Part shown: piece after piece, positions 8,917 to 31,700 of the stretch
How positions within the stretch are numbered: the first letter of the stretch is position 1
Layout: every line of letters begins with the position of its first letter
Source: Wohlfahrtiimonas chitiniclastica DSM 18708
GTDB lineage: Bacteria; Pseudomonadota; Gammaproteobacteria; Cardiobacteriales; Wohlfahrtiimonadaceae
Length of the DNA: 64,000 bases
NCBI RefSeq assembly: GCF_000375345.1
Contig: NZ_AQXD01000001.1
Location: forward strand, 698,600-762,599
Direction: 5' to 3'
Position numbers and translations under genes: made by a program
Notes under the pieces: generated by a model
Seen by the model: only the letters and a program-made list of their open reading frames with translations
What the model was told of the DNA's origin: nothing
Databases searched by the model: none

Positions 8917-10146
8917 TTAGTGTATGGCAACATCGTCCTTCGGTGTTGCCGCACTGATCATAAATTGCGCTCTATAATGCATGAATAACCACATCGCCAA
9001 ACCAAAGGCCACAAGGCTAATGCCAGCCCCCACAAAGCCCAATGAATCGAGCCCCAATTTTGCAATCACAATATTGCCCACGAGCGCACCGCCGCCAATG
9101 CCAATGTTAAAAATGCCTGAGTAAATGGACATTGCCACATCCGTTGCATCCGCAGCTAAATCCAAGACTTTCACTTGCAGCGCAAGCCCCACACAGATGC
9201 TGGCAATCCCCCAAATGAAGGACAACACAAACAGCAACACGCTCGAAGATGCCACAGGCAATAAAATCAAAATACACACCGTCAGCACGATGATGGAGAC
9301 AGGCAAGAATGCCAACGGATGGCGACCATTATAGCGCCCGAAAATATAGCTCCCGGCAATGCCTGCCACCCCAAAGATCAATAGTAAAAAAGTGGTATAA
9401 CTTGGCTCGATCTTCGCCACTTGCTCAGCAAAAGGCTCAATGTAGCTGTATACGGTAAAATGCGCCGTGACAAAAATCGCCGTCAGCGCAAAAATGCCCA
9501 CCAATGCAGGTCGTTTAAATAAAATGGGTAAGCTTTTTAAAGAGCCAGCATTTTCACTCGGCAATTTAGGCAACACGCGCAGTAAAACCACCAATGTGAT
9601 CAAAGCAAGCCCGCCAATGCCTAAAAAAGTGAATCGCCAACCCACCATTTGCCCCACAATGCGGCCAATCGGAATGCCAAGCACTGTGGCTAACGCTGTG
9701 CCTGTGGCCAAAATGCCAAGCGCCTGGGATTTTCGTCCAATGGGTGCAACCCGCACCGCAAGCGCCGCGGTAATCGACCAAAACAATGCATGCGAAATGG
9801 CCACACCAATGCGCCCAATGACAAGCACCGTAAAAGATTCTGCCATAAAGCAGATCACATGGCTGATCACAAACACGATAAAGATGTACAACAGTAAGCG
9901 TTTACGCTCCATTGCTCCCACCATCAACAATAAAGGCAATGATGTGAGTGCCACCACCCACGCATAAATGGTGATGATGATGCCCACGTGCCCAATGGAC
10001 ATGTTAAAGTCTTGGCCAATGTCAGTGAGCAATGCAATCGGAATGAATTCTGTCGTATTAAACACAAAGGCTGCAAACGCTAAACTGATGACGCCAAGCC
10101 ATGCGCGATTGGTGTGGTGATTATTTGTGATGGGCGTTGCTAACAT
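8917..10146 (-). CDS. sotB: Sugar efflux transporter, SotB-like MFS permease
   Basis: The 409-aa protein has twelve predicted membrane helices. It shares extended blocks with E. coli SotB/YdeA, including the FNTTEFIPIALL start of helix 1, the TIYAWVVALTSLPLLLM block, the GRIGVAISHALFWSITAALA block and the ATDVAMSIYSGIFNIGIGGG block near the end. SotB exports arabinose and IPTG in E. coli; here the substrate may be a sugar or drug-like compound. AAGGAG lies 5 bases before the ATG. It is monocistronic, bounded upstream by the terminator of the butanediol dehydrogenase-like gene. Confidence 0.85.
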   Translation of the reverse strand: MLATPITNNHHTNRAWLGVISLAFAAFVFNTTEFIPIALLTDIGQDFNMSIGHVGIIITIYAWVVALTSLPLLLMVGAMERKRLLLYIFIVFVISHVICFMAESFTVLVIGRIGVAISHALFWSITAALAVRVAPIGRKSQALGILATGTALATVLGIPIGRIVGQMVGWRFTFLGIGGLALITLVVLLRVLPKLPSENAGSLKSLPILFKRPALVGIFALTAIFVTAHFTVYSYIEPFAEQVAKIEPSYTTFLLLIFGVAGIAGSYIFGRYNGRHPLAFLPVSIIVLTVCILILLPVASSSVLLFVLSFIWGIASICVGLALQVKVLDLAADATDVAMSIYSGIFNIGIGGGALVGNIVIAKLGLDSLGFVGAGISLVAFGLAMWLFMHYRAQFMISAATPKDDVAIH

Positions 10147-10185
10147 CTTCGCTCCTTGTTGGTATGATCAATGCTATTCACCCTA

Positions 10186-10226
10186 ACAAAAAACCCCCTG
10201 TTTGCCTATGGCGCGCAGGGGATTTT
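10186..10226 (-). terminator. Rho-independent terminator of the butanediol dehydrogenase-like gene
   Basis: A hairpin pairs CCCCTG (10195-10200) with CAGGGG (10216-10221), extended by an outer AAA/TTT. It is followed, reading leftward, by a TTTTTT run. It lies just past the stop of the leftward gene at 10249. Confidence 0.8.
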
Positions 10227-10248
10227 GGGCAATCATTGAAAAAACAAA

Positions 10249-11298
10249 TTATTGTTCGCCGCTGAGCGTCACCAAAATTTTGGCTTGAGTTTTATCAGAC
10301 ACCAAGGTTTCAAAACCCTCGTTGACGATCTCATCAAAGGCGATTTTCTTTGTCACAATCGGCGTCACATCTAATTGCCCAGATGCCATCAAATCAATGG
10401 TTTCTTGGAAGCTTGAGGGTGAATAAGCAATCGATGAAGTCACTTTCACACCTGTATTGATGAGCTGCATCGGATGCCAGGTGATGGGCGCTGCAAAAAT
10501 AGAGATGATCACCATCGTACCGCGTGGGCGCGTGACATTGATGGATTGCTCCACCGTTTGCTGAACGCCCGCCACTTCAAACGCCACATCAACACCGCGG
10601 GGCACAATGTTGCGCACAGCCGTAACAGCATCTTCTTTCCCTGAATTGATGATGTGGGTTGCACCCATCGCTTTGGCCATCTCTAAACGTGAATCGGAGA
10701 GATCAAGGGCAATGACTTTAGTCGCGCCACCTGCTTTAGCCGCCGCAATCGTCACTAAACCAATCGGACCTGCGCCAAACACCGCAACCGTATCACCAAA
10801 ACGTAAACCGCCCTCTTTCACCGCTTGCACAGCCACGGCTGTGGGTTCAATTAACGCTGCGGTTTCTAGTGAAAGATGATCCGGCAGATGATACACCGCA
10901 GATTCTGGCACATTCACAAAATCGGCAAAGCCACCATCACAATGTAAACCAATGAAACTAAAGCCATCGTAAATGTCATCATACTCACTGCGTTTGCCAT
11001 GAGTAATCGTTGGATTGACAGAAACGCGGTCGCCCACTTTATATGCAGTCACGTTTTGACCCACCGCTTCCACAACGCCAGAGAACTCATGCCCCATCGT
11101 CAACGGCGCTAAACCACCGGTTAAACCGTCACGCGCTTGAGTCGGAATGAAGACAGGACCTTCTTCAAACTCATGCAAATCACTGCCACAAATGCCTGCC
11201 CATGCCACGCGAATGGTCACTTCATTGTCTTTTAAGGGCGATAATGCTTTATCTTCGATGCGGATATCTTCACGACCATGCCAAACGGCTGCTTTCAT
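10249..11298 (-). CDS. Zinc-type alcohol dehydrogenase, 2,3-butanediol dehydrogenase-like
   Basis: This is a 349-aa medium-chain dehydrogenase. Catalytic zinc ligands are visible at Cys37 (GICGSDLHEF) and His70-Glu71 (MGHEFSGVV), and the NAD site is a GAGPIGL motif near residue 175. The four structural-zinc cysteines of classical MDRs are missing from the lobe around residues 95-115, as also recalled for Bacillus BdhA. The enzyme would interconvert acetoin and butanediol, but related threonine or polyol dehydrogenases cannot be excluded. No acetoin synthesis genes are nearby. AGGAGA precedes the ATG. A terminator follows. Confidence 0.75.
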   Translation of the reverse strand: MKAAVWHGREDIRIEDKALSPLKDNEVTIRVAWAGICGSDLHEFEEGPVFIPTQARDGLTGGLAPLTMGHEFSGVVEAVGQNVTAYKVGDRVSVNPTITHGKRSEYDDIYDGFSFIGLHCDGGFADFVNVPESAVYHLPDHLSLETAALIEPTAVAVQAVKEGGLRFGDTVAVFGAGPIGLVTIAAAKAGGATKVIALDLSDSRLEMAKAMGATHIINSGKEDAVTAVRNIVPRGVDVAFEVAGVQQTVEQSINVTRPRGTMVIISIFAAPITWHPMQLINTGVKVTSSIAYSPSSFQETIDLMASGQLDVTPIVTKKIAFDEIVNEGFETLVSDKTQAKILVTLSGEQ

Positions 11299-11351
11299 AG
11301 CGTTCTCCTATTTATCTTTATTATTCAGTAAGCTATAGCTTATCAGATCCA

Positions 11352-11383
11352 CAAAATAAAAGCCGAAAGGATCGCTTTCGGCT
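11352..11383 (-). terminator. Rho-independent terminator of fumC
   Basis: AGCCGAAAG (11361-11369) pairs perfectly with CTTTCGGCT (11375-11383) around a 5-base loop. Reading leftward, a T-rich tract TTTATTTTG follows. It is the first hairpin past the fumC stop. Confidence 0.85.
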
Positions 11384-11415
11384 GATATTTGTCAATGTGT
11401 CAAAGGATATCGTGA

Positions 11416-12810
11416 CTAAATATCCCCCACCATTTTCTCAGGAATCACCCACGCATCAAATTCCGCTTCTGTGAGATAGCCTAATTCTAATGCTGAGGCT
11501 TTAAGGGTTAAGTTTTTCTGATACGCATTTTTCGCAATTTTTGCCGCTTTATCATAGCCAATGTGAGGATTGAGCGCTGTAACCAACATCAATGAGTTAT
11601 GCAACAAATGGTCAATGCGCTCTAAATTCGGCTCAATGCCAAAGGCACAATGAATGTTAAAGCTGTTCATGCCATCAGACAATAGACGCACTGATTGCAA
11701 GAAGTTATTGATGATCATTGGGCGAAACACATTGAGCTCAAAATTCCCATTCATTCCGCCAATGTTAATCGCCACATCATTGCCCATCACTTGCGCGCAC
11801 AACATGGTCATCGCTTCGCTTTGAGTGGGGTTCACTTTCCCAGGCATGATGGAGCTGCCCGGTTCATTTTCCGGAATGCGAATCTCGCCAATGCCGCAAC
11901 GAGGACCCGAAGATAACCAGCGCACATCATTGGCAATCTTCATCAATGCAGCGGCTAAGCCTTTTAACGTGCCGTGGGCATACACCAATGCATCTGTGGT
12001 GGCCAGTGCCTCAAATTTATTTGGCGCAGTCACAAAATCAAGCTCTGTGAACTCAGAAATTACGCGCGCCACATTCTCAGAATAATGGGGCGGCGTATTT
12101 AAACCTGTGCCCACCGCTGTACCGCCTAACGCCAATTCAGATAAATGCGGCAAAGCGGATTTAATGTGTTTTTCTGCGTTGTGCAACATCTCAACCCAGC
12201 CGGAAATCTCTTGCCCGAGTGTCAATGGCGTGGCATCTTGTAAATGCGTGCGGCCAATTTTGACGATCATTTTAAAATCATTGGCTTTTTTTGCGAGCAC
12301 ATTTCTAAGCGCTGCAAGTTCTGGCAATAAATGTTGATGAATGGCCACCACTGCGGCAATGTGCATTGCTGTTGGGAAGGTATCATTCGAGCTTTGGGAT
12401 TTATTCACATCATCATTTGGATGCACAAGGCGCGCTTCCCCGCGTTCACCGCCCATCAATTCGCTGGCGCGATTGGCAATCACTTCATTGAGATTCATGT
12501 TCGTTTGTGTGCCAGAGCCCGTTTGCCAAATCGCCAATGGAAATTCGTCAGGATGCTCGCCTTTAATGATCTCATCGCACGCTTCAACAATGAACTGCGT
12601 TTTTCGATCATCCAATAAACCTGCTTTATGATTCACCAACGCTGCTGAGCGTTTAACAATCGCCATTGCGGTGATTAAATCTTTGGGCATTTTTTCGGTG
12701 GAGATTTTAAAGTTCTCTAAAGAACGCTGTGTTTGAGCGCCCCAAAGCTGATCTCTGGGCACTTTAACATCACCCATTGTATCTTTTTCTATGCGAAACG
12801 GTTGATCCAT
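11416..12810 (-). CDS. fumC: Fumarate hydratase class II
   Basis: It catalyses the reversible hydration of fumarate to malate in the TCA cycle. The product is 464 aa, a normal family length, and iron-independent. The superfamily signature [11 protein letters not shown] is at residues 318-328, and the HLQDATPL loop with the catalytic-site histidine is at about 189. The ATG at 12810 is chosen because GGAGG lies 5 bases upstream; an in-frame TTG at 12822 overlaps that ribosome-binding site. It is divergent from the large oxidoreductase gene with about 180 bases between. Confidence 0.95.
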
Positions 12811-22832: not shown

Positions 22833-23552
22833 TTAATCTCGCACATCTGCAGTTGCCACAGCGCCCATTTTTTCTGAGCGCAGATGGGTGATCAAAGCTT
22901 TTGCAGTCTCTGTGGGCGTGCTTAATTTAGCGTCTGTTTTATAATCGATAAAGCGCTTGAGGTTTGGAAACAGTTCAGGCGTACTGCTGCGGATCACCGC
23001 TTGCATGTCTGTATCAATCACGCCTGGGGCAATCGACACAACTTTGACAGGATTGTCTTTAGTTTGCTGCTCTGTAAACAGCACGCGCGTAAAATGATCC
23101 ACCGCAGCTTTTGTGGCGCAATAAGCCGCCCAACCTTCATACGCCTTATGGGCAGCGCCAGAGGAGACGTTCATCACACATTTTTCACCACTGAATGATT
23201 CCGTCAATGCCACAAAAGCATTCGTCAAAGCCATCACTGCTCCAACATTGAGCAACAAGGCATGACTGATTTGTGTGGCATCCATTTTACCCACCACACC
23301 AATGGGCTCGACTGTGCCGGCATTATTGATGAGGGTGACGCGCGCTGCATCCGCAAGCTTTGAGGATAACCATTGCGTCATCGCTTCAACGCCCGCTGCT
23401 AAATCTGTTAAATCCACCGTGATTAAATTGGGTAACGCCCTTGGATTGGTGCGTGCTAAACGCAATACTGTGTGCCCTTCTCGCTCTAATTGTGTGGCCA
23501 ATGCATCGCCAATGCCTTTAGATGCGCCGGTGACAATGTATAATTCACTCAT
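22833..23552 (-). CDS. Short-chain dehydrogenase/reductase (SDR)
   Basis: A 239-aa classical SDR: cofactor motif TGASKGIG at residues 8-15, NNAG at 76-79, active-site serine at about 130 and Tyr144-x3-Lys148 (YCATK). The overall pattern resembles sepiapterin reductase/benzil reductase (YueD-like) members, which use NADPH; the substrate is unknown. The ATG at 23552 is chosen over the longer open frame because GGAG lies 7 bases upstream and residue 1 starts the first beta strand. No obvious partner genes are nearby. Confidence 0.85.
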   Translation of the reverse strand: MSELYIVTGASKGIGDALATQLEREGHTVLRLARTNPRALPNLITVDLTDLAAGVEAMTQWLSSKLADAARVTLINNAGTVEPIGVVGKMDATQISHALLLNVGAVMALTNAFVALTESFSGEKCVMNVSSGAAHKAYEGWAAYCATKAAVDHFTRVLFTEQQTKDNPVKVVSIAPGVIDTDMQAVIRSSTPELFPNLKRFIDYKTDAKLSTPTETAKALITHLRSEKMGAVATADVRD

Positions 23553-23694
23553 GATAATCTCCGTCAAAAGATTGACTATAGCCAATCTATAAGGCGCTGA
23601 CAAATGATTGACCATCATTCCATCTTGCAGTTCCCTATGAATATCCCCATCATGATCACTCCTTTCCCATCCATTATTGAATGAAATTGAAATC

Positions 23695-24129
23695 ATGACT
23701 GATCGCAAACCCAACTATTTTTACATCGCCGCTGCCATGGTGATTGATCATAAGAATCGCTTGCTCCTCGTGCGTAAACGCAATACTGAAAAATTCATGC
23801 TCCCCGGCGGAAAAATTGATGGCACAGAATCGCCCCTTGAAGCATTGATGCGCGAATTGCAAGAGGAGATTGATTTAACCATTGCGCCCGATGATGCCCA
23901 CTTTCTACAAACTTATGATGCCAAAGCTGCCAATGAACCGGATCATCGCATTGAGTCCAATCTTTTTCGCGTGGTATTGCCTGAAGGCATCACCATCACG
24001 CCACAAGCGGAAATTGAAGAGATGGTTTGGCTCAATGCCACTGATTATCCTACCCTTAATTTTGCCCCGCTCGTGGTGGAACGCATTTTACCGCTCTGGC
24101 AAGAACATATTCGTGGGAAACAGGTGTAA
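23695..24129 (+). CDS. Nudix hydrolase
   Basis: The 144-aa protein has a near-complete Nudix box: second Gly of GGKIDG, then E after five residues, then RELQEE after seven, covering residues about 37-58. The last Gly of the consensus is Asp. It probably hydrolyses a nucleoside diphosphate derivative, such as an oxidised nucleotide; specificity is not evident. The ATG at 23695 is used rather than the TTG at 23677; there is no strong ribosome-binding site. It lies upstream of erpA, about 45 bases away. Confidence 0.85.
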   Translation: MTDRKPNYFYIAAAMVIDHKNRLLLVRKRNTEKFMLPGGKIDGTESPLEALMRELQEEIDLTIAPDDAHFLQTYDAKAANEPDHRIESNLFRVVLPEGITITPQAEIEEMVWLNATDYPTLNFAPLVVERILPLWQEHIRGKQV

Positions 24130-24175: not shown

Positions 24176-24511
24176 ATGTCAGATACAGGAATTAATTTTA
24201 CAGATGCCGCAGCCCTCAAAGTGAAATCTTTGATCGATGATGAAGCAAACCCGAACTTAATGTTGCGTGTTTACATTCAAGGTGGCGGTTGCTCTGGTTT
24301 TCAGTACGGTTTTACCTTTGCTGAAGAAGTGGAAGCAGGTGACATGGAAGTGGTCAATCAAGGTGTGACTTTATTGATCGATCCATTGAGCTATCAATAT
24401 TTAGTGGGCGCGGACATTGATTATGTGCAAAACCTACAAGGCGAGCAATTTGTGATTCGTAATCCAAATGCCACCACAACATGCGGCTGCGGAAACTCAT
24501 TCAGTGCATAA
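24176..24511 (+). CDS. erpA: Iron-sulfur cluster insertion protein ErpA
   Basis: An A-type carrier that delivers Fe-S clusters to apoproteins, including isoprenoid-synthesis enzymes in E. coli. The 111-aa length and the three ligand cysteines, Cys39 ([11 protein letters not shown]), Cys103 and Cys105 (TTCGCGNSF), are diagnostic, and the sequence matches ErpA better than IscA. An AGGAGG is 5 bases before the ATG. It heads a co-directional run with the SPFH/NfeD/DUF2868/DUF3482 genes. Confidence 0.93.
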
Positions 24512-24537
24512 TTCACAACAATAATAAAGGAGCATTC

Positions 24538-25458
24538 ATGACCGGTTTATCCACCGTAATTTTACTGATCATCATCGCAGCGGTTGTGGTGTTGTATCTT
24601 GGCGTGAAAATCATTCCCCAAGGTCAGCAAGCCACCGTTGAGCGTTTTGGGCGTTATTCTCACACGCTTCACCCGGGCATCAACTTAATTGTGCCTGTGT
24701 TTGATCGCATCGGTAAACGCATCAATATGATGGAACAAGTCATGGATGTCCCTTCTCAAGAGGTCATCACGCGCGACAATGCTATGGTGCGCGTTGATGG
24801 CGTCGTCTTCTTTCAGATCAATGATGCTGCGCAAGCTGCTTATCAGGTCAATAACTTAACCTTATCCATCATTAACCTCATCATGACGAACATTCGTACA
24901 GTGATGGGCTCGATGGATTTAGATGAATTGCTCTCTAAACGCGATGAAATCAACGCGCGTTTACTGGATGTCGTGGATCATGCCACAGCGCCTTGGGGCG
25001 TTAAGGTGACACGCATCGAAATCAAAGACATTGCCCCGCCGCGCGATTTAGTGGATGCCATGGCAAGACAAATGAAGGCAGAACGTGAAAAGCGTGCCGC
25101 CATTTTAGAAGCCGAAGGCCTACGCCAAGCGGAAATCCTCAAAGCAGAAGGTGAAAAACAAAGCGTCATTTTAGATGCAGAAGCCAAAAAAATGGCTGCC
25201 TTCATGGAAGCGGAAGCCCGTGAACGCTTAGCACAAGCCGAAGCGCGTGCCACAGCCATTGTCTCTAAAGCCATTCAAGAAGGTGACACACAAGCCATCA
25301 ATTATTTCGTGGCACAAAAATATGTGGAAGCCTTTGGGAAAATTGCCGACAGCGACAATAGTAAGATCATCATGATGCCGATGGAATCCAGCAGCATTGT
25401 GGGTTCTTTAGGCGGCATTGCAGAATTGGTGAAATCTGCCACACAAACCAAACCTTAG
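24538..25458 (+). CDS. SPFH/Band-7 membrane protein (QmcA/stomatin-like)
   Basis: The 306-aa protein starts with one membrane anchor (residues about 3-22). An SPFH domain follows ([21 protein letters not shown] start), then a long alanine/glutamate coiled-coil (about 175-250) and a short C-terminal segment. It is likely to form oligomeric scaffolds at the inner membrane that influence protein turnover or lipid microdomains. The ATG at 24538 has AAAGGAG 6 bases upstream. It is followed after eight bases by the NfeD-like gene, the classical SPFH-NfeD pairing. Confidence 0.92.
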
Positions 25459-25466
25459 GAGTAAAT

Positions 25467-25913
25467 GTGGCAGCGATCTTAGTCAATTGGTTCACCATGG
25501 GGCTTGTGCTCATCATTTTAGAGATGATTTTGCCAGGCATTTTCCTGATGTGGTTTGGCGTCAGCGCTTTGATTGTGGGCATCATTACCCTCATCATTCC
25601 GATGGCGATGAACACAGAACTCATCTTATTTGCCGTGATTTCTGTGCTCTCTGTCTTAGCAGTGCTGTATCTGATGCGTAAACATGTGCCAGAATCTAAA
25701 ACCACAGTGACGGCGCATCTTAATCAAGTGCGTGGCGCTGAATTGATTGGTCAAACTTTCACCCTACCAAGTGATTGCGATGGACAAGGCAAACTCCCGA
25801 TTGGCGATACTGTTTGGTTGATCCGTGGGCCAATTGCACCTGCCAATGCTCGCATTCGCATTACTGGCATTGAAAACAATACCTTGACTTATCAGATTGC
25901 TGACGACTTATGA
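25467..25913 (+). CDS. NfeD-family membrane protein (short form)
   Basis: A 148-aa protein with three to four hydrophobic segments in residues 1-70 and an OB-fold-like C-terminal domain (about 85-145), the architecture of short NfeD proteins that partner SPFH proteins. The start is a GTG with TAGGAG a few bases before; an ATG two bases earlier is out of frame. The gene overlaps the start of the DUF2868 gene by four bases (ATGA). Confidence 0.88.
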   Translation: MAAILVNWFTMGLVLIILEMILPGIFLMWFGVSALIVGIITLIIPMAMNTELILFAVISVLSVLAVLYLMRKHVPESKTTVTAHLNQVRGAELIGQTFTLPSDCDGQGKLPIGDTVWLIRGPIAPANARIRITGIENNTLTYQIADDL

Positions 25914-26974
25914 AAACGCACCTCGAACCTCATTTACACACCGTAATGCGCCATTGGCGCATTCTCTTTGTGCTGTGGATCGTGCTGACCATTTTAAGCA
26001 CATTATTTGGCTCAAGCTCACTCATTGCTTCCCCAATTCATCCCCTTTACTTTGTCTTGGTGATGCTGCTGCCTTCCACGTTGTTTTTAATTTTTTCACT
26101 CATCACAGCCCATTCGCTGTTTGCAGAGCTCTTTTTACAGCTGAAAAATCTCATCTTTAAGCAGGATCATGCACCGAATCTCAGCACGCCATTACCGGTG
26201 CGCTATATTGCTCAACTCATCTCAAATGCAACATGGCTCACCATTTTGATCACGACGTTGCTTGTGCTCTTTTTTAAATTCACCTTTCAGCACTTTGATT
26301 TTTACTTAGGCAATACCTTTACAGAGAGCCAAAGCACCACGGATCACATTGTCCATTATCTCAATTGGTTGCCAAGTAAACTTGGGCTCATTGAGTTTGA
26401 TGATGCCATCATTCAGGCAAGCTTTCAAAGTGTAAAACTTGCCGATGAAGCGCGCTCGATGTGGGCAAAATGGATCATCGTGATGATCTTGATGTATGGC
26501 ATTGTGCCGCGCCTTTTTGTGTTCATCTATTATGTGATTCGCGCACTGCGCCATCGAAAATCCGCAACTGTTGCCGTCAGTGATGCAGTGATTGAAGATG
26601 CCGCAAAAGAAAAACCTTTGGTGATCCGAGCCCCAAAAACGCCTGTTATTGGTGATGGTCATTATCGAGTCGCACTCGACATCACAGAGCAAACAACTTT
26701 GCCCGATAACGTGGTGCGCTTAAATGACATCGAAGCCTTTCAACAATTTGAAAGTGCACGCAAAGTTGAGCCCGCTCAGTGGATTGAAATCATGATTGAT
26801 GGTAATTTAATGCCAGATCGTGGGATTTTGCGCCGTTTAATTCGCCTGATGAATCAAGCCGAAAAAGCCACCATTCATGTCTTGACGGATGATCCCCATC
26901 AAACACAAATGTGGCAACACCATTTATCCTCCATCATTGTTGACGGCGAGGCAGCTGATTATGAAATCAAATGA
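25910..26974 (+). CDS. DUF2868 membrane protein
   Basis: The 354-aa protein has about four membrane segments: residues about 17-37, 44-66, 98-120 and 180-200. A cytoplasmic C-terminal domain of roughly 140 residues follows. The lay-out and the partner gene match the DUF2868 family, which is regularly found just upstream of a DUF3482 GTPase. The role is unknown. It is coupled by overlap to both neighbours: four bases with nfeD and 14 bases with the GTPase. Confidence 0.75.
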   Translation: MKTHLEPHLHTVMRHWRILFVLWIVLTILSTLFGSSSLIASPIHPLYFVLVMLLPSTLFLIFSLITAHSLFAELFLQLKNLIFKQDHAPNLSTPLPVRYIAQLISNATWLTILITTLLVLFFKFTFQHFDFYLGNTFTESQSTTDHIVHYLNWLPSKLGLIEFDDAIIQASFQSVKLADEARSMWAKWIIVMILMYGIVPRLFVFIYYVIRALRHRKSATVAVSDAVIEDAAKEKPLVIRAPKTPVIGDGHYRVALDITEQTTLPDNVVRLNDIEAFQQFESARKVEPAQWIEIMIDGNLMPDRGILRRLIRLMNQAEKATIHVLTDDPHQTQMWQHHLSSIIVDGEAADYEIK

Positions 26975-28328
26975 CATTACGATTGCCATCGTAGGACACA
27001 CCAATACCGGTAAAACCTCTTTGGTGCGTGCGCTCACAAAGCAGCGCCACTTTGGGGAGGTGAAAAACGCCCCTGCCACCACCATTGATGTGACAAAAAT
27101 TACGCTCGAAACGCCAGATTTTGCCTTCCATTTTGTGGACACACCGGGGCTTGAAGATGCCATGGGGATTTTGGAATTGATGCCACAAAAATCCCTCAAT
27201 GCTTCGCGCGTTGAAGAGAAAGACGCGCTCCTTCAACTCATGGACAACCCGCAATATCAGCAAGATTTTGACCAAGAATTTAAAGTCCTCAAACAGATGC
27301 TCAAAAGTGACATGGCATTTTATGTGATTGATGTGCGCCAACCTTTTTTGCCGCGCTATCACTATGAGATCATGTTGCTCCTGAAAACGCACATTCCTTT
27401 GCTACCGATTTTAAATTTTACGCAAAATGCACGCTACATCGAGGATTGGAAAAATGAGCTCAAAGCCAATGGACTGCATCATTACTTAGAGTTTGATACG
27501 ATTTTATTGCCGAAAAAGCAGCGCTTGTATGAGCAAATTGCCATCATGTTTCCGGATCGTTATCAAAACATTCAATCCTTCATTCAGGTGCAAAACACCT
27601 TAGATCAATCCCGCAAAGCACGCGCATTGATGCTATTGGCAGAATTCTATTTTGACCTGATGACCATTAAAATCAAAGCCAACACCCAAAAGCTTGATCT
27701 AGATGAGATCAATGAGCGCATCACCACAGAAACGAAAGTATTAGAATCCATCTTCATTGATCAGCTTTTAGAACTCTATCAATTCAGCAGAAGTGACATT
27801 CAGCACATCATGCTGACCACAGAAGCGAGCGCGACCACGCAAGATTTACTCTCCGCTGAAGAGCTTGGGCAATTTTCCATTCAATTCACTAAAGGGGCAG
27901 CGGCAGGCGCTGGCATCATGGCAAGCGTTGATTTAATCAGCGGCTTTACCACCCTTGGCATTGCCTCGGCAACGGGCGCTGTGGTGGGCGGCGTGTTCAA
28001 CTCCATTTGGAATTATGGGGAGCGTCTTTGGGACAAATTTCAAGACATTGAATACTTTTTCATTGATCAACCCACCGCCGTTAAATTGATGCTGAATCTT
28101 TTATACATCATCGAACGCCTCAATGATCGCTCCCATGCCGAGCTTGACCCAATTGTGATCGACATGCAGCAATCAACGCCTGCACGCATTCATGATTTTA
28201 TGAAAGCCACAGAATATGTCCGCGCTTACAGCGAATTGCATCAAAAGCAAGATGCTAAAAAAGATAAACTCTTGAAAAAAATTGTCACAGAAATCCAAGA
28301 CTGTTTTATGGCAAATAAAAAAAGCTGA
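26961..28328 (+). CDS. DUF3482 GTPase
   Basis: A 455-aa Era/MnmE-like GTPase. The P loop GHTNTGKT is at residues 12-19, switch residues Thr40/Thr41 follow, and G3 is DTPG at 60-63. The normal NKxD G4 motif is replaced by LNFTQNA at 151-157, so guanine specificity is uncertain. Residues about 311-350 form a glycine/alanine-rich hydrophobic stretch that could insert in or lie on the membrane. The ATG at 26961 begins the first beta strand; longer frames overlap the upstream gene too far. It probably acts with the DUF2868 protein. Confidence 0.8.
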   Translation: MKSNDITIAIVGHTNTGKTSLVRALTKQRHFGEVKNAPATTIDVTKITLETPDFAFHFVDTPGLEDAMGILELMPQKSLNASRVEEKDALLQLMDNPQYQQDFDQEFKVLKQMLKSDMAFYVIDVRQPFLPRYHYEIMLLLKTHIPLLPILNFTQNARYIEDWKNELKANGLHHYLEFDTILLPKKQRLYEQIAIMFPDRYQNIQSFIQVQNTLDQSRKARALMLLAEFYFDLMTIKIKANTQKLDLDEINERITTETKVLESIFIDQLLELYQFSRSDIQHIMLTTEASATTQDLLSAEELGQFSIQFTKGAAAGAGIMASVDLISGFTTLGIASATGAVVGGVFNSIWNYGERLWDKFQDIEYFFIDQPTAVKLMLNLLYIIERLNDRSHAELDPIVIDMQQSTPARIHDFMKATEYVRAYSELHQKQDAKKDKLLKKIVTEIQDCFMANKKS

Positions 28329-28345
28329 TGATTCATCAGCTTTTT
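28317..28345. terminator. Bidirectional terminator between the GTPase and pepD
   Basis: AAAGCTGATG (28321-28330) pairs perfectly with CATCAGCTTT (28334-28343) around a 3-base loop, with A and T runs on the two sides. The GTPase stop codon lies inside the left arm. Confidence 0.85.
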
Positions 28346-29816: not shown

Positions 29817-29987
29817 AGAAGTCCTTTATCTCTCTATTGTATACATTGAGCCTCAATCATAATGAATAATGTCACCTTTCTCAAGGCGCAGCCTAAATGG
29901 ATCACTCAATCAATCAGTTGCGATTAATGATACAATGATACACTCAATATTGATTTACATTTGATTCACACTTTTATGGAGAAGCTT

Positions 29988-31700
29988 ATGTCTTTAACGA
30001 TGAAACTTCGGCATCACCTATTATGGATTTTACTCGCGCTGAGCATGATCCTATGGCCTTCGCATGCAGTGGAGGCAGAAACCACACAAAACACCCCAAA
30101 TGCACAAGCGGCACCGAGTGACAGCATTACGGATCAATTGGCCACCATTGTCAATGACATGAAGGAGCTTCAGGACAAGAAAACGGCACTCACCAAAGAG
30201 ATCAAAGCCGAACGTGATGATGCGCACAAGCAAGAGCTTGAAGAAAGCTTAACGCGTACAAATACGCAGCTTAAAGAGTACACCGCCTTGTTTGAAAAAA
30301 TCGCCCTCGGTGGCATTGACACCTCGCGCTTTGATACGCCTGCTAAACAAGCCATCCAACAGGTGGATGATTATGATTGGCAAAAAGAGCTCGTACAGAT
30401 TGCCCAACCCGTCTTTGCCGAGATGAAAAAAATCACCGATGCCCCACGCAAACGCGATGTATTGCGCTTAGAGCAAAAAGAGATCGATGAGCGATTATCC
30501 ATGTTAGATAAAGGTTTGGCCACCTTTGCCCAAATCAATTTAGCAGAGTTGCCAGAGACGGCACAAAAAAATCTCAAAGACATCGAAGCCGGTTGGCAAA
30601 ACCTACACAAAGAGTTGGAACGTGAACGCAAACTTGTGGTGATTAAACTCGATGAGTTGACCACCAAAGAAGGCTTTACCACTCGCTTATATAAAGGCGC
30701 TTGGTCCTTTATGACAGGGCGCGGTTTATTGCTGCTCATCACCATTGCCACATTGTCAGGCTTAATGTACCTCTTTAACCGCTTTTTGGTCTTCATTGAA
30801 AAACGCGAGAAAAATAACATCTCCATCCAATGGCGCGTGTTCATTCTTTTGTATCAAATCATCACCACATTGGTGGCGGTCTTGGTGACCTTGATGATCC
30901 TTTACTCATCAGGTGACATGGTGCTCTTTGGGATCGCGATTTTAATCATCCTCGCCTTCTTAGTCACTTCGCGCAATTCCATTCCTAAATACTTCACCAA
31001 AACGCGCATTTTCTTAAACATTGGGCAAGCCCGTGAAGGCGAACGCGTGATTTATAATGATCTCCCTTGGAAGATCAGCCGCATCAACCTTTACACCGTT
31101 TATTTAACCAATCCATTATTAGAAAATGGTACCGTGCGCTTGACGATTGATCATCTCAACAACATGATCTCCCGCCCTGTGAAAATGGATGAAACCTGGT
31201 TTCCCACCGTCGTTGGTGATGTGATCTATTTAAATGGCACACAATACAAAGTGATGCGCCAAACGCCTGAATATGTTTACCTAACCTCAAGCGGCACAGA
31301 GATCATCTATCCTTCTAAAGATTTCATTAAGGATAAAGTGCTCAATGTTTCTTACGGTTATTACATCTCAACGGAATTGAGCTTAAATTATGCCGCCATT
31401 AATGGTGACATTGATGCCGTGATCACCACCTTACAAGAGGCTTTAAACGCGCGCATTCAAGCGGAAAATCCAGATGCCCACAAAGCCATCAAATCCTTAA
31501 CGATTGACTTTAACCGCATTGATGAGCAAAACAATGCCGTGTTCTTAATTGCCTTTAGCATGGGATCATTTGCCACGGATTATCGCGGTTCGATCATCCG
31601 TTTAGCACAACGCTGCGCCGTGAAAACAGCTCAAGAGCACAATTGGTCTCTCAAAACCATTCGTACATTCAGTATCGATGAGAGCAAACCTGCTCAATAA
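29988..31700 (+). CDS. MscS-like mechanosensitive channel family protein
   Basis: The product is 570 aa: a signal peptide (about 1-30), a helical coiled-coil periplasmic region (about 45-220), three hydrophobic segments (about 236-325), then a soluble beta/alpha region (about 330-565). A segment with GTEIIYPSKDFI resembles the conserved end of the MscS beta domain. It is divergent from canonical MscS, so channel function is inferred. The ATG at 29988 has GGAG 6 bases upstream. It is followed by a bidirectional terminator. Confidence 0.65.
   Translation: MSLTMKLRHHLLWILLALSMILWPSHAVEAETTQNTPNAQAAPSDSITDQLATIVNDMKELQDKKTALTKEIKAERDDAHKQELEESLTRTNTQLKEYTALFEKIALGGIDTSRFDTPAKQAIQQVDDYDWQKELVQIAQPVFAEMKKITDAPRKRDVLRLEQKEIDERLSMLDKGLATFAQINLAELPETAQKNLKDIEAGWQNLHKELERERKLVVIKLDELTTKEGFTTRLYKGAWSFMTGRGLLLLITIATLSGLMYLFNRFLVFIEKREKNNISIQWRVFILLYQIITTLVAVLVTLMILYSSGDMVLFGIAILIILAFLVTSRNSIPKYFTKTRIFLNIGQAREGERVIYNDLPWKISRINLYTVYLTNPLLENGTVRLTIDHLNNMISRPVKMDETWFPTVVGDVIYLNGTQYKVMRQTPEYVYLTSSGTEIIYPSKDFIKDKVLNVSYGYYISTELSLNYAAINGDIDAVITTLQEALNARIQAENPDAHKAIKSLTIDFNRIDEQNNAVFLIAFSMGSFATDYRGSIIRLAQRCAVKTAQEHNWSLKTIRTFSIDESKPAQ

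Follow-up and report, generated by a model that had tools for sequence, protein, structure and literature searches.

The run of five genes described here lies in a stretch of 64,000 nucleotides from Wohlfahrtiimonas chitiniclastica DSM 18708 (contig NZ_AQXD01000001.1, positions 698,600 to 762,599 of the forward strand), whose genome measures 1.99 Mb. We refer to the whole stretch as the window and number positions from its first letter. The run begins with erpA, continues with genes for an SPFH protein and an NfeD protein, and ends with two genes whose products belong to the families DUF2868 and DUF3482. These last two are the main subject of this work. In the literature searched (most subscription journals and all preprints lie outside it, and its papers were available in part) both domains are only named and no function was found for either; a search of it by title for the pair together with SPFH, NfeD, GTPase, Wohlfahrtiimonas or Ignatzschineria also found nothing. 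A guess at the pair's locus tags in Pseudomonas aeruginosa was not upheld: PA0352 figures in a paper on a nucleobase transporter. The five genes are:

24176-24511, plus strand: erpA, encoding an iron-sulfur cluster insertion protein (NCBIfam ErpA equivalog, 181.3 bits, cut-off 117).
24538-25458, plus strand: SPFH gene of the QmcA (YbbK) type, 306 amino acids (Band_7 and a match to PDB 8z5g_A).
25467-25913, plus strand: short NfeD gene of the YbbJ type, 148 amino acids, GTG start (PF01957, 31.1 bits, cut-off 29.1).
25910-26974, plus strand: DUF2868 gene, 354 amino acids (PF11067, 1.7e-22, 80.9 bits, cut-off 26.8).
26961-28328, plus strand: DUF3482 gene, 455 amino acids (PF11981, 1e-39, 137.2 bits, cut-off 29.2).

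The spacing between them, in that order, is 26, 8, −4 and −14 bases. A preliminary description of this DNA had given the same genes, gaps and overlaps, with every coordinate exact, and NCBIfam and Pfam uphold all five of its family assignments. The longest open frames begin further 5′ for the SPFH gene (24481) and the DUF3482 gene (26889), and the starts at 24538 and 26961 fit better.

The pairing of DUF2868 with DUF3482 is genuine and nearly invariable. In a whole-genome survey 55 loci were read, of which three weak matches (L047-L049) and one fusion (L114) were dropped to leave 51 with an intact DUF3482 gene; DUF2868 adjoins it on the same strand in all 51, at a distance of about 0.4 kb in L098. 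A second set, the best 80 of at least 565 confirmed named loci, found by a scan with one P-loop pattern, has DUF2868 on the DUF3482 strand in every case and no more than 134 bases between the open frames in 79. The pairing stated in the preliminary description is borne out. The sole named locus with a wide gap is that of Bordetella ansorpii (L183:4993-10000), where about 5 kb separates the two genes. As for the discarded matches, those in L047 and L048 are to glycine-zipper domains of the OmpA type or other types, and L049 is a weak match of the same kind; positions of about 150-210 in the PF11981 profile also attract glycine-zipper proteins that are unrelated to DUF3482. Pairs occur in Pseudomonas, Achromobacter, Marinomonas, Gilliamella and others, and these share with the window both families, the gene order, the strand and mostly the tight spacing. 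They differ from the pairs of the window's own family, labelled Ignatzschineriaceae in the DUF3482 tree, in that the latter have a shorter DUF2868 N-terminus and a DUF3482 that forms one long-stemmed clade.

Natural fusions of the two families were also found. In the family of genome G514, outside Ignatzschineriaceae, DUF2868 was detected in 24 of 80 genomes (22 over the cut-off), and all 24 carry a DUF3482 part, which belongs to the same frame in six and to a frame of its own close by in 18 (about 0.8 kb away in L324). Four fusions (L313, which is the same gene as that of L114, at 9603-11765 on the minus strand; L314; L315; L317) join the DUF2868 membrane part to the C-terminal glycine-zipper domain of DUF3482, with no recognisable G domain or P-loop in any of them. 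In fusion L327:1219-3342 a DUF2868-type membrane part leads directly into a G domain, whose P-loop is intact, and then into the C-terminal domain of DUF3482. In L322 DUF2868 is followed by a G domain; Pfam alone names only the G domain there, the DUF2868 part having been recognised by the genome search (1.4e-8) and by a profile of our own. Both L322 and L327 run to the end of the stretch read. The near-constant pairing together with these fusions indicates that evolution has treated DUF2868 and DUF3482 as one unit.

The two families also divide together. We aligned 132 sequences of each, made up of the window's own, 51 from the whole-genome survey and 80 from the named loci, with some genes fetched twice. 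Where DUF3482 has a T-type P-loop, its DUF2868 partner carries an xD[RQ]x motif (119/119 pairs), and the other 13 pairs all lack that motif; xDRx occurs in 117 of the 132 DUF2868 sequences. Such co-splitting subfamilies are as expected of a linked pair, with few independent events behind the split.

The folds and the topology of both proteins are predicted only. The AlphaFold2 model of DUF3482, built from 64 sequences, has a mean predicted local distance difference test score (pLDDT) of 83.9 and a predicted template modelling score (pTM) of 0.81. Its main parts are:

About residues 1-200 (2-203 in the model), plus strand: G domain (MMR_HSR1, PF01926, 9.7e-17, 61.5 bits, cut-off 21.9).
26994-27020, plus strand: P-loop, residues 12-20, with the strict form GxxxxGK[ST] in 130 of 132 aligned sequences.
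27906-27980, plus strand: glycine-rich hairpin, residues 316-340, pLDDT below 50, a candidate membrane-contacting glycine zipper.

The predicted architecture is a G domain of the Era/Der type and, after it, a helical C-terminal domain with a glycine-zipper hairpin. Der is the best solved match of the G domain by sequence, and Der and Era are the closest by fold; the predicted model superposes on Era (7c1o) with Z 18.0 and a root-mean-square deviation (rmsd) of 3.4 over 170 aligned residues, and the match list for the whole model is filled by G-domain matches. The motifs are highly uniform across the 132 sequences. The two that depart from the strict P-loop start it with Ser, the fourth P-loop residue is Asn in all 132 and G3 reads DxPG in all 132, while the G4 motif NKxD occurs in none: its Asn is retained in every sequence, followed by Phe in 117. 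DUF3482 therefore resembles Era, Der and MnmE in G-domain fold, sequence match and P-loop Asn, and differs from them in lacking G4 NKxD, in having a helical C-terminal domain of its own and in having a membrane partner gene. By its predicted fold it is a G protein, standing outside the canonical GTPases. K+-activated GTPases are described in PMC3466195 as having an Asn in GxxNxGK[ST] and a second Asn five residues past the P-loop Lys. All 132 DUF3482 sequences have the first; at the place of the second is Arg23, invariant in the 64-row DUF3482 alignment.

DUF2868 is the membrane protein of the pair. Its AlphaFold2 model (59 sequences, mean pLDDT 88.0) shows a short N-terminus, four long hydrophobic helices and a C-terminal alpha/beta domain; the relative placement of these parts is unsure in view of a pTM of 0.65. 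Helices 3 and 4 are linked by an acidic loop of about 55 residues, and the sequence that follows helix 4 is basic, a charge distribution that fits a predicted topology with both termini in the cytoplasm. The C-terminal domain is:

26654-26971, plus strand: DUF2868 alpha/beta domain, residues 249-354, G-domain-like fold lacking a P-loop, a pseudo-GTPase candidate.

The best structural match of this domain is RagA (6u62_B; Z 8.2, rmsd 2.9, 103 aligned residues), followed by Gtr1, EngB and Arf, and G proteins fill all but about 5 of the 50 listed rows, the exceptions being a TIR domain and a few other chains. A Foldseek match to EngB has probability 0.99 and E 0.08. The motif GxxxxGK[ST], searched over the whole length, occurs in none of the 132 DUF2868 proteins. 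Taken together, the modelled fold and the missing motif are suggestive of a P-loop-less pseudo-GTPase. In Ignatzschineriaceae the stretch before helix 1 comprises 10-29 residues in 20 of 21 frames and 58 in the other, as against a median of 72 in other DUF2868 proteins (n=111, of which three are also short); these lengths are approximate, as start codons were picked by rule.

The SPFH and NfeD genes are of an already known kind, the QmcA/YbbJ type. Residues 8-302 of the 306 in the window's SPFH protein match Protein QmcA (PDB 8z5g_A) at E 7.8e-126, and the NfeD product, encoded 8 bases further on, matches YbbJ (8z5g_B) at E 2.6e-16. The E. coli QmcA-YbbJ complex (PDB 8z5g; Tan et al. 2024) is cited in PMC12624060, PMC13086221 and PMC13100048, and in the first two it is described as a 26-fold membrane cage, with 26 copies of QmcA (PMC12624060) or 26 heterodimers (PMC13086221). 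Operons of SPFH1 and NfeD are described as common in PMC2636767, which gives 229 of 353. The window's genes resemble those of E. coli in that an SPFH gene neighbours a short NfeD gene and both proteins match in sequence; they differ in having erpA before them and DUF2868-DUF3482 after them.

The distribution of DUF3482 is patchy. Counting the window's genome, matches over the cut-off were obtained in 14 of 274 genomes of the class, in 17 of 57 relatives (16 from Ignatzschineriaceae, one from elsewhere in the class and none of the 14 that represent the order's other families) and in 29 of 299 genomes of the phylum, each of which belongs to that same class. SPFH, NfeD and erpA stand beside the DUF pair in 14/14 Ignatzschineriaceae loci and 0/37 others in the whole-genome survey, and in 6/6 and 0/74 of the named loci, the two sets overlapping in Ignatzschineriaceae. 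Loci were read to at most about 10 kb on each side, some ending at contig edges (the shortest contig being 5.5 kb), and the absences outside Ignatzschineriaceae hold for the stretches read. All 16 Ignatzschineriaceae genomes with DUF3482 (the window's, 14 surveyed and G289) have the five-gene block, and as these five genes recur in unchanged order in 15 further genomes of the family the run is not due to chance.

QmcA and DUF3482 also occur apart. Of the 37 genomes outside Ignatzschineriaceae that carry DUF3482, 10 have a close QmcA, defined by E below 1e-100 (the next value being 2.5e-78), and 27 lack one. In seven qmcA regions from such genomes nfeD adjoins qmcA every time and the DUF pair never does; a DUF3482-like match 5 kb from qmcA in L238 is actually elongation factor G. 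The order's other families are represented by 14 genomes, none of them with DUF3482: a close QmcA occurs in 12, G292 has a partial match and G149 a match in two pieces. Ten qmcA regions from these families contain no erpA, DUF2868 or DUF3482. The nfeD gene is near qmcA in nine of the ten, directly adjacent in seven, and no nfeD match was found near qmcA in L233, an 8.4-kb contig. In the remaining two regions, L229 and L230, qmcA and nfeD are 0.8 and 1.3 kb apart and may have something between them. The two pieces in G149 (G149:C1:1191423-1192318) overlap in different frames, as with a frameshift. In five genomes of family f161 (G550, G351, G436, G574 and G526) a close QmcA and DUF3482 lie on one contig at about 16, 34, 34, 61 and 105 kb, which is probably a shared regional gene order. 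Outside Ignatzschineriaceae no neighbour of the DUF pair is conserved beyond groups of related genomes: over 41 loci, which include the false matches and L114, dihydrofolate reductase was counted 7 times and dihydroxy-acid dehydratase 8 times, in clusters that are those of related genomes.

The preliminary description had proposed that the GTPase and its membrane partner act on SPFH-defined membrane zones. The tight run with a QmcA/YbbJ-type pair in the window stands in its favour. An adjacency extending beyond close relatives, on which the proposal leaned, was not seen, as the survey places SPFH and NfeD beside the pair only in Ignatzschineriaceae and the DUF3482 tree fits one origin, and a general coupling of SPFH proteins to this GTPase is not supported by the distribution. 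With the link confined to one small family among those surveyed, adjacency alone should not assign the DUF pair to SPFH microdomains, and its position next to SPFH cage genes is weak evidence of joint work.

The simplest history suggested by the sequences is a single joining of the DUF pair to erpA-qmcA-nfeD within Ignatzschineriaceae. The closest named relatives of the window's DUF3482 are from Wohlfahrtiimonas (72% identity) and then Ignatzschineria (42-49% over the best segment). A quick tree, built with 66 of the 132 DUF3482 sequences, puts the 11 from Ignatzschineriaceae on one side of a branch with a support of 100 in the Shimodaira-Hasegawa-like approximate likelihood ratio test (SH-aLRT) and a stem of 2.06 changes per column; an odd letter make-up was flagged for several rows, the window's included. 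In a fourth genus of the family (G279, 80% complete) qmcA-nfeD occurs without erpA or the DUF pair and DUF3482 has no match, for which loss of the pair and later joining are equally possible. Genome G278 (81% complete) is uninformative on the block, as its 3.3-kb contig stops inside nfeD.

Retention of the block carries less weight than might be expected. In one Ignatzschineria genome, of which 1.22 of 2.56 Mb was covered, 14 of 16 testable neighbour pairs from the window are kept, in four blocks, and 10 of 12 are still neighbours when the block's own four pairs are set aside. This control is biased toward kept pairs, as those that have scattered will more often have a member outside the sequence searched. 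Because 10 of the 12 other pairs are also kept, the retention of the block is ordinary, and the case for it as proof of shared function is weakened; retention fits an operon.

The reading that we favour, with moderate confidence, is that DUF2868 and DUF3482 form one inner-membrane-tethered G-protein unit, which was joined once behind erpA-qmcA-nfeD within Ignatzschineriaceae. DUF2868 would be a four-helix anchor carrying a cytoplasmic G-domain-like module without a P-loop. This pseudo-G domain and the membrane part may hold the G domain and helical domain of DUF3482 at the membrane, with the glycine-zipper domain of DUF3482 assisting recruitment, and the nucleotide cycle of DUF3482 would then alter the state of the DUF2868 membrane part, if signalling runs in that direction. 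The unit would have been placed behind erpA-qmcA-nfeD in an ancestor common to Wohlfahrtiimonas, Ignatzschineria and a third genus, and the joining with QmcA-YbbJ may serve to express the genes together, with no need for the proteins to be physical partners. Our guess at the physiological output of the unit is envelope maintenance. In E. coli, YcjX and YcjF are likewise a GTPase and a membrane protein with a similar two-gene logic; a Pfam scan gave zero matches to their families for either DUF2868 or DUF3482 at E 0.01. The gain is that two families without a function acquire a concrete architecture, an anchor with a G-like domain and a G domain without G4.

Several points weigh against this reading. 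Foldseek returned no matches at E ≤ 0.001 for the DUF2868 C-terminal domain, and a Z near 8 may reflect mere common arrangement or background. Fusion L327 has no pseudo-G domain between its membrane part and its G domain, so that the pseudo-G domain is not indispensable. The guanine specificity of DUF3482 is not assured, as G4 NKxD is missing. Against an incidental joining, the block has been kept in three genera over which DUF3482 is 41-43% identical to the window's, and in two of these three both flanks differ from the window and the five genes are all that is shared, barring matches of 23-28% identity.

The first two of these points would suit a different protein, in which the DUF2868 C-terminal domain is ordinary and Rossmann-like, DUF2868 acts as a sensor or channel and is gated by DUF3482 in the manner of FeoB, whose G domain controls a membrane part. 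This has a modest chance of being correct: besides the weak Foldseek scores, the TIR domain and few non-G chains among the structural matches would fit it, as would the direct joining of a membrane part to a G domain with an intact P-loop in L327, while the structural matches as a whole favour G proteins over generic Rossmann folds. The kept block, in turn, could mean that in Ignatzschineriaceae the GTPase pair has a working role in the microdomain formed by QmcA and YbbJ, perhaps as an energy-using regulator. The presence of the block in every genome of the family that has DUF3482, with new flanks on either side in two of the three genera, is consistent with this, as are the 4-base overlap of nfeD and DUF2868 in the window, the shortened DUF2868 N-terminus and the long stem of the family in the DUF3482 tree. 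A parallel is DynA-FloT of Bacillus subtilis, in which a membrane GTPase and an SPFH-type scaffold share one functional neighbourhood and the membrane GTPase and flotillin have a synthetic phenotype (PMC3551649). We nevertheless think a working part of the microdomain unlikely, as the tree fits one origin, the evidence comes from a single lineage event, erpA is held in the block with no likely role there, most other testable neighbour pairs are retained as well, most other genomes with DUF3482 lack a close QmcA, and in the order's other families most genomes possess a close QmcA and none possesses DUF3482.

A more specific version, which we regard as a long shot, would have the DUF2868 pseudo-GTPase pair with the DUF3482 G domain so that the Asp and Arg of a PDRG motif at DUF2868 residues 302-305 complete in trans an active site that has no G4 Asp. 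If true, the pair would be a heterodimeric G protein of the bacterial membrane, similar in principle to eukaryotic Rag or SRbeta-type receptors, and in Ignatzschineriaceae it would have been recruited to drive the QmcA-YbbJ cage. The closeness of Der and Era to the DUF3482 G domain, by sequence and by fold, might instead point to a ribosome-assembly GTPase that is merely held at the membrane. Such GTPases are near-universal, in contrast to the 14 of 274 genomes of the class with DUF3482; a KH domain went unmatched in the Pfam scan, and the membrane partner is constant and fused to DUF3482 in places, which makes this explanation highly improbable.

Two further comparisons concern the G domain of DUF3482. 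It falls short of the dynamin-like proteins, with a Dynamin_N match of 18.1 bits against a cut-off of 27. A defence system was considered and rejected, as the PADLOC matches at E 0.001 are to LeoA and LeoBC only and cover about 60 residues of the G domain; that of LeoA scores 28.2 bits over residues 5-65.

The ends of the run are marked by two further features:

28319-28345, strand not assigned: terminator-like hairpin with a 12-bp stem and A and T runs (−13.7 kcal/mol, z −4.95).
23695-24129, plus strand: nudix hydrolase gene (PF00293, 3.1e-14, scored on a longer frame from 23677).

The hairpin sits between convergent genes and no shuffle in 200 was equally stable, in agreement with the preliminary description, which had the run end at one terminator; a terminator scan has no entry for it. 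No promoter-like site on the plus strand within the run is listed in that scan either, a result of little weight given 22 sites in the sequence and 15.2 ± 3.8 in shuffles. The nearest upstream ones on that strand are two overlapping sites at 23517-23558, and since they lie 5′ of the nudix gene the transcript may start before erpA. The nudix gene ends 46 bases before erpA on the same strand and may share the run's transcript; it was matched in Wohlfahrtiimonas loci only and lies outside the conserved block elsewhere. No functional link of erpA to the rest of the block is evident. In Ignatzschineria loci erpA is up to 580 bases from the SPFH gene, which makes a single transcript less certain there. 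Downstream of the run, positions 29961-31700 on the plus strand encode a 579-residue protein with zero Pfam matches at E 0.01; it has membrane segments and, by eye alone, is of the mechanosensitive-channel type.

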